From an uncultured Bacteroidota bacterium (lineage in GTDB: Bacteria > Bacteroidota > Bacteroidia > Bacteroidales > UBA12481): a DNA stretch of 34,722 bases. The stretch lies in NCBI GenBank assembly GCA_903919925.1, contig CAIXKO010000642.1, positions 1-34,722 of the forward strand, read 5' to 3'. Position numbers and translations under genes: made by a program. Of the stretch, positions 12,220 to 23,545 are shown piece by piece (within the stretch, counting starts at the first letter, position 1; the number at the start of each line of letters is the position of its first letter). Below the pieces are notes generated by a model that had not been told where the DNA came from, did not search any database, and was given only the letters and a program-made list of their open reading frames with translations.

Positions 12220-12753
12220 ATGAAGACCGTTTTAATTCTTTTATTATCCCTGTGTTTAGCTAATCCTTCATCCGCACAGGAGCCGGTATCGATAGCCAAA
12301 ATAACCGTTCACGAAGGTGCAGATAAGAGTACAAAGACTCCCCGCCCATTTGTATTTCAGGGTTATTCACGTGAATATGACCTAAGCAGAATTACGAATG
12401 AGTTATCCGGCAACCATTTTTTGGGAGAGTCGATAGCAAAAAAAGTTTATCTGCTTGATGATCTGTATACTTCAGAAGTTGCCGTTGTTCCTGGAAATCC
12501 TCAGATGAAAACCATAATTAAAAAGCCGGTAATCTACACCGCAGTAAAACGTATAGAGAAGTATATGGCAAAATCAGTTAAAAAAGGAGAGATTTCAAAG
12601 GAATTGGCCATTGAAGAATTTAACAGGGTATTGGATGTTGCCCTGAGCGTTCTTAGCGAAGATACCAGGCAATTTGAAGTGGAGATTGAAGCTCTGCATG
12701 ATGATTCAGCCCGAATCGACTTGTTTACGCGGAGAGTAAGCCTAAATTATTAA
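12220..12753 (+). CDS. Secreted protein of unknown function, first gene of the SusCD operon
   Basis: ATG 12220; signal peptide MKTVLILLLSLCLANPSSAQ; stop codon abuts the SusC ORF; no family recognised. Confidence 0.75.
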   Translation: MKTVLILLLSLCLANPSSAQEPVSIAKITVHEGADKSTKTPRPFVFQGYSREYDLSRITNELSGNHFLGESIAKKVYLLDDLYTSEVAVVPGNPQMKTIIKKPVIYTAVKRIEKYMAKSVKKGEISKELAIEEFNRVLDVALSVLSEDTRQFEVEIEALHDDSARIDLFTRRVSLNY

Positions 12754-12788
12754 TGATTTCAAACGGAATATTTATTAAAATGATTATT

Positions 12789-15700
12789 ATGAACAAACTG
12801 AAATTTACTTATTTACTTTTAATATTGATCCTTTTTGGGCTAGCTGTAAATGCCCAGAACAAGGAGATTTCTGGTACAGTAAAAACCACTGATGGCTCAA
12901 CTCTTCCGGGTGCCGATGTTTTGATTAAAGGAACAGCCACCGGGGTTACCACCGATGCTAATGGCCGTTTTATTTTAAATGCCCAGAACAAAGATGTTTT
13001 ATTGATTTCCTTTGTGGGCTATGTACAACAGGAGATCTTAGTAGAGAATAGGATAACTTTTGAGATCGTGCTTATTGAATCCGCAGTGGAACTCAGGGAG
13101 GTTGTGGTAACAGCTTTAGGTATTGAAAAGACGAAAAGTTCCATCGGATATGCCTTTAGCGAAGTGAAAGGAAAAGACCTTACCAAGGCAAGGGAACCCA
13201 ATGCAGTTAACAGCCTGGTTGGTAAAGTTGCCGGCCTTATAGTAGGAAGTTCTTCTGAATTGCTGGGGGCGCCAAGTGTATTATTGCGCGGAGTGGCCCC
13301 GTTATATGTTGTTAACGGGGTGCCGGTTCAATCCGATACCTGGAATATTAACCCTGACGACATTGAAAGCTACACGATATTGAAAGGACCTACCGCTGCT
13401 GCTTTGTATGGTTCCAGAGGCCAGAATGGGGCTATTCAGATCACCACCAAGCGCGGGACTGCTGATCAGAGGGAGTATGCGGTGGAATTCAATTCAAGCA
13501 CCATGTTTGAAAAGGGATTTCTTGCCATTCCAAAAGTACAGGATGAGTACGGCCCCGGTGATCACGGTCAGTATGCTTTTGTGGATGGAAGAGGGGCCGG
13601 AACAAATGATGGGGACTATGATATATGGGGTCCCAAATTTGACGGCCAGTTAATTCCTCAGTATGATAGCCCTATTGATCCGATTACAGGAAAGCGCACC
13701 GCTACACCATGGGTGGCCAGGGGCAAGGATAATTTGAAAAGATTTTTGGAAACAGGCTTGCTTTCAACGAACAGCTTGTCGATAGCTTCAAGCAATAAAA
13801 AATACGATCTCCGTTTTTCGGGTTCACATTCTTATCAGAAAGGAATTGTACCCAATACATCCCTGAATATTACCAACTTAAATCTTTCAGGTGGATACAA
13901 TGTTTCGAAAAAACTGCGCCTGGATGCAAATATGGCGTACAGCAGGCAGTATACACCGAATGTTCCTGATGTGAATTATGGTCCGAACAGTATTATTTAC
14001 AATATAATTGCATGGGGTGGAGCCGATTGGAATATAGATGATATGCGTAATTACTGGCAGCCCGGTAAAGAGGGGGTCCAGTCGATCTTTGCAGAGTACC
14101 AGCGTTACCATAATCCATATTTCATGTCATATGAATGGTTGCGAGGTCACTATAAAACTGATATTAACGGTTATACATCAGCTAATTATCGCTTTAACGA
14201 ACATCTCAGCCTTTTAGCCCGTACCGCTATTTCGTCCTATGACCTTTTGAGAACGGAAAAACTTCCTTTTTCAGCACATCCTTATGGTCGTGAGGCTGGT
14301 TTAGGGGATTACCGCGAAGATAAGCGCTCACTTTTTGAAAATAACACGGATGTTCTGCTTTCGTTTGACCAGTATATAGTCCCGAAATTAAGTGTTCACG
14401 CATCAGCGGGTGCGAACCTTCGTTCTTACACTTTCCGAAGCAGCTATGCCACTACTGATTATTTAAACGTACCAGGTTGGTATAACCTGAGCAACTCGAA
14501 GAATCCTGTAAAATCTTATAATTTCTTTGCCCCAATGTCAGTACTCAGTGGTTATGCACTGGCAGATTTTACTTATAATGAATTTGCTACCCTTTCATTT
14601 ACAGGTCGCTGGGATAAGAACTCAACTTTGCCGGTTGCAAACAATGTGTATTTCTATCCCAGTGTATCTTCCAGTATCGAAATATCGAAACTGGTATCCA
14701 TACCAAAAGTCAAATCATGGAAAGTCCGGGGTTCCTATGCAAACGTGGGAAGTGCTTTGACTTCTTCCATGATCGGGCCAACCTATAATGCCCTTGGATT
14801 TGGGATTCTTGATTATGGCGCCACCTATTATTCTCCTTATGATGGTCCTTCGTATATCAATAGTTCATCATACGGTATTAATCTGATACAAGGGTTACCC
14901 GGTGCCTCGTATACCGGAACCATTGCCAATCCCGGGATCAAGCCTGGCTTCAGTTCAGCTTGGGAAGTTGGAACTGATATTGCATTATTCAATAACCGTC
15001 TTGGTTTTGAATTCACTTATTTCTCGACTATTGATGGGCCAAAAATATTCGCTTTGCCAATTTCAGGTGCTTCAGGATTTGGCTATGCATTGGTAAACGG
15101 GATCAAAACACAACGAAAAGGAGTAGAACTCGGTGTTACCGCAGTCCCGGTTTTTCAACCCGGAGGATTGAAATGGGAAGTTTCAGCTAACTTTTCAACC
15201 AACCAGCAATACCTTAAAGAAATTTACCCGGGAGTTGAAAATTACAATATATACTTGAAAGTGGGTGACCGGATGGATAAAATGTATGGGTCAGATTTTG
15301 TCAGAAACTCCGATGGTCAGATTATCAACGATGCCAGCGGCAGGCCAATCAGGAATTCCGTTCCGCAGTTTCTCGGATATACCAATTCAAACGCTGTTGG
15401 TGCCATCAGAAACACGTTGTCATACAAGGGCCTGAGTTTTACGTTCCAGTTTGATGGCCGGTTTGGTGGCACCATTCTCGACTATGTTGAGAAAAAAACC
15501 TATCAGGGTGGTCGAATCATAGAAACGGTTGAGGGAAAAATGGGTGAAGCCCGTGCTAACGACGTTAAGGGCATAAAGTCGTATGTTGGAGAAGGGGTAG
15601 TGGTAAGTAACGGTGTAGCAATTAAATATGATGCCGATGGTAAAATTATTAATGGTGATCAATTGCAGTTTGCACCCAATACTACCGCAACCTATTTACA

Positions 15701-22401: not shown

Positions 22402-22429
22402 TCAAAATGGAGAATAAAAAAAAAAGGAA

Positions 22430-23545
22430 ATGATCAAAAAACTATATACACCTGGTCCTCTCACAACCTCCGACTCGGTTAAAGAAGCAATGAACCGCGA
22501 CCTCGGATCGAGAGATATGGAATTCATAAAAATGGTAGCGGACATACGCCAAAGGCTTCTTGATCTGGCAGGGGTGTCGAAAGAGTCAGGTTATGAGGCA
22601 GTCATCTTACAAGGGTCAGGAACCTTTGGGATTGAAGCTGTGCTTTCGACTGTGATCCCCCCTGATGGAGAATTGCTGTTGATCATTAATGGAGCTTATG
22701 GCACAAGGATGGCAAAGATCGCAGCAATTCACGGGATTCTGACTTCACAGTTGGAATACCCGGAGAATGTATGGCCGGTACCTGCTGATATCGACCAAAT
22801 TCTGTATAAGGAACCCGATATCACACATGTTGCCATGGTCCATTGTGAAACCACAACCGGGATTTTCAACGATATCAATGCAATCGGTGAAGTGGTTAAA
22901 ATGCATCACAAAGAGTTTATTGTAGATGCCATGAGCAGTTTTGGTGCAGTGCCTGTTGATTTTGAGAAGGCAGGAATCTCCTATCTGATCTCTTCTTCTA
23001 ACAAATGCATCGAAGGGGTGCCCGGATTTTCTATCGTGATCGGCAGAAGAGAATCGCTGGAACAATGTAGAAACCAGGCCAGAACTTTGTCTCTTGATTT
23101 GTATTCACAATGGAAAGGCCTGGAAAATGATGGGCAGTTCCGCTTCACTCCACCGGTTCAGTCGCTTATGGCTTTCCACCAGGCGTTGATCGAATTGCAC
23201 GAGGAGGGAGGGGTGGATCGCAGGGCTCTGCGTTATCTGCAAAACTACAGGATGTTGCTTTCCGGTATGCGAAAGCTTGGATTCCATGAATACCTGCCTG
23301 AAGAATTGCAGGGTTATATTATTACAACCTTTTTGAAACCGTTGGATCCGGCGTTTGATTTTGAGCGCTTTTATCAAAAACTTAACCAGAGGGGATTTGT
23401 GATTTATCCGGGAAAACTGACCAAGGCGGATGCTTTCCGGATCGGAAATATCGGCCAGTTGTATCCCGAGGATATGCACGACCTGGTCCATGCGATTGCC
23501 GGGGTACTTGACGAATTAGGGGTTGGATCGTGCAGTGGTAGATAA
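22430..23545 (+). CDS. phnW: 2-aminoethylphosphonate--pyruvate transaminase
   Basis: YTPGPLTTSDSVKEAMNRDLGSRDMEFIKMVADIRQRLL, QGSGTFGIEAVL, HCETTTGIFNDI, DAMSSFGAVPVDF, SSSNKCIEGVPGFSIVI. Confidence 0.96.
   Translation: MIKKLYTPGPLTTSDSVKEAMNRDLGSRDMEFIKMVADIRQRLLDLAGVSKESGYEAVILQGSGTFGIEAVLSTVIPPDGELLLIINGAYGTRMAKIAAIHGILTSQLEYPENVWPVPADIDQILYKEPDITHVAMVHCETTTGIFNDINAIGEVVKMHHKEFIVDAMSSFGAVPVDFEKAGISYLISSSNKCIEGVPGFSIVIGRRESLEQCRNQARTLSLDLYSQWKGLENDGQFRFTPPVQSLMAFHQALIELHEEGGVDRRALRYLQNYRMLLSGMRKLGFHEYLPEELQGYIITTFLKPLDPAFDFERFYQKLNQRGFVIYPGKLTKADAFRIGNIGQLYPEDMHDLVHAIAGVLDELGVGSCSGR

Follow-up and report, generated by a model that had tools for sequence, protein, structure and literature searches.

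A SusCD transporter clade linked to phosphonate utilisation genes in uncultured Bacteroidota

Introduction

SusCD systems, which pair an outer membrane transporter (SusC) with a surface lipoprotein (SusD), are commonly regarded as sugar-polymer importers, with glycans or peptides as their assumed ligands. To our knowledge, the uptake of phosphonates across the outer membrane has hardly been studied. A logic resembling that of polysaccharide utilisation loci (PUL) has been described for phosphorus in Flavobacterium, whose PusCD loci combine SusCD pairs with phosphoesterases, and phosphonate-degrading enzymes are mentioned there in one sentence (PMC8115612). PusCD is the published precedent for the locus described here, which occupies positions 12,220 to 23,545 of a 34,722-nucleotide contig (CAIXKO010000642.1, assembly GCA_903919925.1) of an uncultured Bacteroidota bacterium; the whole stretch is referred to as the window. 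Both have SusCD pairs beside phosphoesterases and other organophosphorus genes. However, the published forms are induced by depletion of phosphate (Pi), are polyphyletic and have SusD proteins of the PF07980/PF14322 type (PusD1 and PusD2) (PMC8115612), whereas the SusD of the window matches PF12771/PF12741 only and belongs to a separate PF12771 clade, which tracks genes for carbon-phosphorus (C-P) bond cleavage and has a small secreted partner, sec180.

The cytoplasmic enzymes and the inferred pathway are the same as in the phnW-phnX-pbfA clusters for 2-aminoethylphosphonate (AEP), which have been described as most abundant in Proteobacteria (PMC8154272); the carrier and the outer membrane components of the window are new. 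In the phosphonate gene-cluster papers examined, a term search gave no reference to uptake through the outer membrane or by TonB. AepP, a relative of GlpT and a carrier of the major facilitator superfamily (MFS) encoded beside phnWX, is a proven AEP permease (PMC8316502). GlpT-like carriers in sister loci of the window are of the same type by family, whereas the DUF5690 protein of the window represents a separate MFS family without a GlpT-like profile match beyond a YxxRKxF motif. The C-P lyase operon phnGHIJKLMN is adjoined by a sister SusCD branch in two genomes of the window's order, whereas the window itself encodes a phosphonatase. New here are a defined SusCD clade that tracks two C-P pathways, its conserved partner, the DUF5690 carrier and a set of interchangeable secreted phosphoesterases. 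We consider it very likely that the locus serves phosphonate utilisation, broadly along the route from SusCD to PhnX proposed in the initial annotation.

Gene content of the locus

The initial annotation had listed eight genes on the forward strand, and their order, strand and positions were borne out:

12223..12753, + strand: sec180, small secreted protein of about 177 amino acids, conserved partner of the SusCD clade, no family match
12753..15980, + strand: SusC-type TonB-dependent transporter (TIGR04056), likely start ATG 12789
15987..17501, + strand: SusD-type surface lipoprotein (PF12771, PF12741), likely start ATG 16014, lipobox TTAC
17502..17819, no strand: 318-bp gap between the SusD and PHP genes, no gene found
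17820..18908, + strand: secreted PHP-fold metallohydrolase, candidate phosphonate-ester hydrolase (weak PF02811 and NF038032 matches; structural relative 3E38)
18895..20271, + strand: PbfA (NF049939, 700 bits, cut-off 525)
20298..21593, + strand: DUF5690 carrier with MFS fold (PF18943), candidate aminophosphonate permease by co-occurrence with PhnX and by fold
21604..22401, + strand: PhnX, phosphonoacetaldehyde hydrolase cleaving the C-P bond (TIGR01422, motifs)
22430..23545, + strand: PhnW, 2-aminoethylphosphonate--pyruvate transaminase (TIGR02326, TIGR03301 and NF010006 above cut-off)

The three enzymes of the AEP phosphonatase pathway, PhnX (331 bits with TIGR01422, cut-off 220; motifs DWAGT and KxDH conserved), PhnW and PbfA, all score above curated cut-offs and lie in a single cluster. 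SusC possesses plug and carboxypeptidase-regulatory domains and reaches 471 bits with the NCBIfam profile TIGR04056 (cut-off 368); the adjoining lipoprotein SusD matches PF12771 with 210 bits and the DUF5690 protein PF18943 with 525 bits, both above the Pfam cut-offs. Several starts are those of mechanically called open reading frames, and the true starts probably lie a few codons downstream. The 318-bp stretch between SusD and the PHP gene is non-coding, and the two halves of the locus may form one transcript or two. With domain profiles, glycoside hydrolases were not detected from 11 to 24 kb of the window, so the locus does not qualify as a polysaccharide utilisation locus; an alpha-amylase and a glycosyltransferase at 4.5-8.9 kb are encoded on the opposite strand, outside the cluster.

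Linkage of the SusCD clade to C-P cleavage genes

Conserved linkage of this SusCD type to phnW, phnX and pbfA, which the initial annotation had proposed as a check, was found in about 20 Bacteroidota genomes. In a PhnX scan of 85,488 species genomes, from which 80 loci were kept, these genomes show a SusC of the window type (67-82% identity) together with SusD and sec180 adjoining PhnX/PhnW/PbfA; more distant SusCD members (about 50%) occur with PhnX in two loci (L066 and L084), and a SusCD pair near PhnX in L048 was discounted because of opposite-strand genes in between. PhnX is scarce, being present in only two of 300 genomes from the phylum and nine of 296 from the window's order, so its repeated adjacency to one SusCD clade across many genomes exceeds chance by a wide margin. 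Since the gene order is shuffled among the loci, the association appears to be under selection instead of being simply passed on as a single block. The same link emerges from 141 Prolixibacteraceae genomes that were not selected by PhnX: with SusC counted at an identity of at least 67%, 19 genomes carry SusC and 18 carry PhnX, 16 of them both (Fisher p=3e-16), while three have SusC only and two PhnX only. In all 16 genomes with both, SusC is linked to PhnX, PhnW or PbfA on the visible contig. The count is conservative, since G621, one of the genomes scored as having PhnX only, has a SusD of this type adjoining PhnX (L196).

A survey of the 296 genomes of the order, likewise not selected by PhnX, yielded only three other SusC matches at E<1e-180. 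The best two, at 45% identity, lie next to phnG, H, I, J and K, with PhnN and PhnD present as well in one of the loci, and PhnJ is confined to the same two genomes and was not found in the window's own genome; the third match (41% identity) lies in an ordinary gene context. In a maximum-likelihood tree of SusC, the C-P lyase-linked pair makes up the sister group (93/91) of the clade formed by the window SusC and its phosphonatase-linked relatives (97/96). Distant clade members thus adjoin C-P lyase, and the importer goes along with C-P chemistry in two pathways that are unrelated to each other. The idea of a PUL-like logic for C-P compounds has therefore held up: instead of sitting mostly apart from phosphonate genes, the SusCD orthologs are linked to them in 16 of 19 Prolixibacteraceae, and the C-P lyase linkage of the same SusC clade strengthens it further. 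Taken together, profiles, surveys and tree establish at the sequence level the gene identities, the conserved linkage and the clade membership of SusC; by comparative genomics, the SusCD importer is probably devoted to the uptake of natural phosphonates.

The closest solved structure to the window SusC is 5FQ6 (BT2264), whose ligand we take to be a peptide and not a glycan, so that a non-glycan ligand is feasible for the window SusC. The genetic context of BT2263/BT2264 is a different one, and sec180, which is not a lipoprotein, has no detected relation to that system. SusD is closest to 3MX3, 3EJN and 4LER and shows 85 conserved positions, including R273, N275, R291, R444 and R445, which reflect conservation only and are not assigned as ligand contacts. 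The sec180 proteins (177-180 amino acids) match no Pfam or NCBIfam family, have orthologs of 40-50% identity in the phosphonatase-linked SusCD loci and carry a conserved PGNP...K motif. They adjoin SusC/SusD in nearly all clade loci whose contig extends there, including the C-P lyase loci, being encoded directly before SusC or, in the C-P lyase loci, after SusD. The AlphaFold model is confident (pLDDT 85), and a structure search with it gave no PDB match at E<0.001. A role of sec180 as a partner of SusCD during import is plausible.

The DUF5690 carrier and PbfA

An inner-membrane carrier function of the DUF5690 protein, which had been suggested from the window, is strongly supported by its distribution and fold. 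In the window's order, DUF5690 is present in 8 of 296 genomes, all eight of which are among the nine genomes with PhnX; the ninth contains locus L055, which has a GlpT-like carrier instead. Among the 24 SusCD loci, nine encode DUF5690 and ten a GlpT-like carrier, and none has both. The AlphaFold model (pLDDT 86.5) depicts a 12-helix MFS protein, and Foldseek retrieved sialin, G6PT and GlpT (E 1e-7 to 1e-6, TM 0.63-0.68), placing its fold near the OPA (GlpT/SLC37) and sialin carriers. Membership in the GlpT/OPA sequence family was rejected, as hhalign gave a probability of 3% over 17 columns, with only the short YxxRKxF motif in common. Comparative genomics thus makes an aminophosphonate permease the very likely identity of this family, for which a literature search found no mention. 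DUF5690 also occurs outside the Bacteroidota, namely in a Caulobacter vibrioides control genome and in Singulisphaera acidiphila (L107 near 10001), where PhnX and an HpnZ-like dehydrogenase are encoded near a relative with 37% identity. PbfA is encoded in 19 of the 24 SusCD loci and in one of 13 PhnX loci without SusCD.

Secreted phosphoesterases

The PHP protein falls slightly below the cut-off of PF02811 and reaches 63 bits with the CehA/McbA model NF038032 (cut-off 80). Its metal ligands are intact in the alignment (HMH, TDH, GE, NHPGW and SDVH), and the closest solved relative, 3E38 (E 2e-90), is annotated just as a predicted phosphoesterase. The description of the enzyme as Sb-PDE-like found no backing: the closest structures, 3E38, 2ANU and 3E0F, are all uncharacterised, and Sb-PDE was absent from the solved-structure matches, although no direct sequence comparison with Sb-PDE was made. 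PHP occurs in a minority of the SusCD loci and is replaced in others by unrelated secreted phosphoesterases; in total, four unrelated families were observed, namely PHP, metallophosphatase, AlkP-type and beta-propeller/PF04185 proteins. Secreted phosphoesterases are present in 14 of 24 SusCD loci compared with none of 13 PhnX loci lacking SusCD, a contrast that is indicative only, since detection was limited to families already met in SusCD loci and L048, one of the loci without SusCD, has a PAP2 neighbour.

Proposed route and alternative explanations

In the proposed route, SusCD together with periplasmic or secreted sec180 would move an aminophosphonate-containing compound across the outer membrane using TonB energy. 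The secreted PHP enzyme, or in sister loci a metallophosphatase-, AlkP- or PF04185-type phosphoesterase in its place, would then trim phosphonate esters in the periplasm, thereby releasing AEP or its hydroxylated form R-HAEP, and the DUF5690 carrier would bring the free aminophosphonate into the cytoplasm. There, PhnW (from AEP) and PbfA (from R-HAEP) are expected to form phosphonoacetaldehyde, the C-P bond of which would be split by PhnX to yield acetaldehyde and phosphate. R-HAEP, the substrate of PbfA, is known from a polysaccharide of Acanthamoeba, and HAEP from a lipid of Bdellovibrio (PMC8154272), so that the cargo may reasonably be guessed to consist of complex biological phosphonates. 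A bolder version, which we put forward tentatively, is that a monophyletic C-P-dedicated SusCD clade across uncultured Bacteroidota, with a periplasmic partner of new fold and the DUF5690 permease family, takes up phosphonolipid headgroups or phosphonate-decorated glycans in intact form, with amoebae or predatory bacteria that carry hydroxy-AEP as example sources. The locus suggests that esterified or complex phosphonates, beyond free AEP, serve as a nutrient pool. A SusCD clade that is recognisable by sequence and marks C-P utilisation would also allow phosphonate turnover by Bacteroidota to be counted in metagenomes, and the nameless DUF5690 family and sec180 are offered testable functions.

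Several observations speak against this route. Ten of the 24 SusCD loci show no secreted phosphoesterase among the families searched, and homologs of PHP are very common elsewhere (4,586 scored matches). The initial proposal that the PHP enzyme cleaves an AEP ester is therefore no more than consistent with the phosphoesterases of the other 14 loci, and it is weakened by these counts and by the minority status of PHP itself. On balance, a secreted enzyme that cleaves phosphonate esters in the periplasm is plausible, and we lean slightly towards it. Three genomes (G615, G628 and G643) have close SusC orthologs and neither PhnX nor visible phosphonate genes; as their SusC proteins are nested inside the clade, these genomes have probably lost the phosphonate genes. 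A deeper sister branch of sec180-SusC-SusD (G713-715, 42%) has no visible phosphonate genes either, so sec180 is not phosphonate-specific and is to be seen as a transporter partner and not as a phosphonate enzyme. Most of the surveyed loci are contigs of metagenome-assembled genomes, and the window's own genome has three matches to PF12974-type binding proteins of unassigned specificity, which makes another import route possible.

The loci without a phosphoesterase would also fit a SusCD whose direct cargo is small aminophosphonates in free form (AEP, HAEP) or phosphonates over a wide range, without ester cleavage and with PHP as an independent phosphoesterase. This explanation is helped by the SusC clade also serving the broad-specificity C-P lyase, and by the BT2264 type of the closest solved SusC, presumably a peptide carrier, which makes small non-glycan ligands feasible. 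However, DUF5690-PhnX-PhnW loci without SusCD exist and are presumably sufficient for free AEP entering via porins, and the four unrelated phosphoesterase families occur alongside SusCD but not in the bare loci; we regard direct import as rather unlikely. That the locus scavenges Pi from general organic phosphate esters as a phosphate utilisation system (PUS), with the phosphonate genes being incidental, is improbable. The PusCD of Flavobacterium is Pi-regulated and lies beside phosphomonoesterases, phosphodiesterases and phosphonate-degrading enzymes (PMC8115612), but the SusC clade tracks PhnX or PhnJ specifically in two unbiased surveys, and the PF12771-type SusD of the window is not of the PF07980/PF14322 pair found in PusD1 and PusD2. 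That the SusCD imports glycans or peptides in the usual way and lies beside phosphonate genes by coincidence could be imagined because SusCD pairs are numerous, a single Pfam family accounting for 20 SusD-like genes in the window's own genome, and because three SusC orthologs occur without phosphonate genes. It is largely contradicted by a linkage that persists in about 20 genomes despite shuffling of the genes, by the statistics of the Prolixibacteraceae survey and by the link to a second C-P pathway, and has very little probability.

Regulation

Just upstream of the locus, a further gene is encoded:

11211..11936, + strand: OmpR-type response regulator (PF00072 and PF00486; PhoB models below cut-off)

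It is possible that this protein regulates the locus. As a dedicated regulator it was rejected, since it scores below the PhoB cut-offs and is not conserved in other phosphonatase loci. Scans for Bacteroidota -33/-7 promoters, sigma-70 promoters and terminators gave sites no more frequent than expected by chance.

Related assemblies and neighbouring genes

Similar combinations of genes occur with unrelated receptors. L055 harbours an unrelated SusCD operon, the SusC of which falls outside the clade, with an HpnZ-like dehydrogenase, two metallophosphoesterases, PhnX, the GlpT-like carrier, PbfA, an AlkP-superfamily enzyme and PhnW. L110, L120 and L130 combine two non-SusC TonB receptors with a secreted PF01663-type phosphodiesterase, PhnX and an HpnW-type oxidoreductase, and L120 and L130 additionally carry DUF5690. 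With the window-type SusCD loci, the same logic has thus been assembled at least three times.

Other genes recur near PhnX. A saccharopine-dehydrogenase-like protein (387 amino acids, PF03435/PF16653) is encoded directly before PhnX in about eight loci (L063:8813-9976, L065:8815-9978, L067:8813-9976, L071, L074, L105, L181 and L182) and is a candidate for a new phosphonate-pathway enzyme, absent from the phosphonate literature examined. A second PhnX-like HAD hydrolase lies beside the true PhnX in L060:6522-7274, L061, L065, L074, L105 and L110:12201-12899; that of L060 is of the TIGR03351 type and shares 27% identity with PhnX. A conserved, divergently oriented gene for a protein of about 295 amino acids without family match, probably a regulator, lies beside DUF5690-PhnX-PhnW in L050:8131-9012, L051:10922-11806, L053, L054, L065 and L074. 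The genome containing L063 has a second PbfA-PhnX-PhnW cluster without SusCD (L072), followed by a symporter-like protein and oxidoreductases. The sec180-SusC-SusD genes of the deeper sister branch (L185-L187, from G713-G715) have in their vicinity a lipoprotein resembling a GH20 hexosaminidase in sequence. Downstream of the locus, the window encodes a CHAD-domain protein (25242-26042) and a group of phosphate and polyphosphate genes (26316-31795) comprising a PhoU-domain protein, phosphofructokinase, a histidine phosphatase, PPK1 and PPK2.

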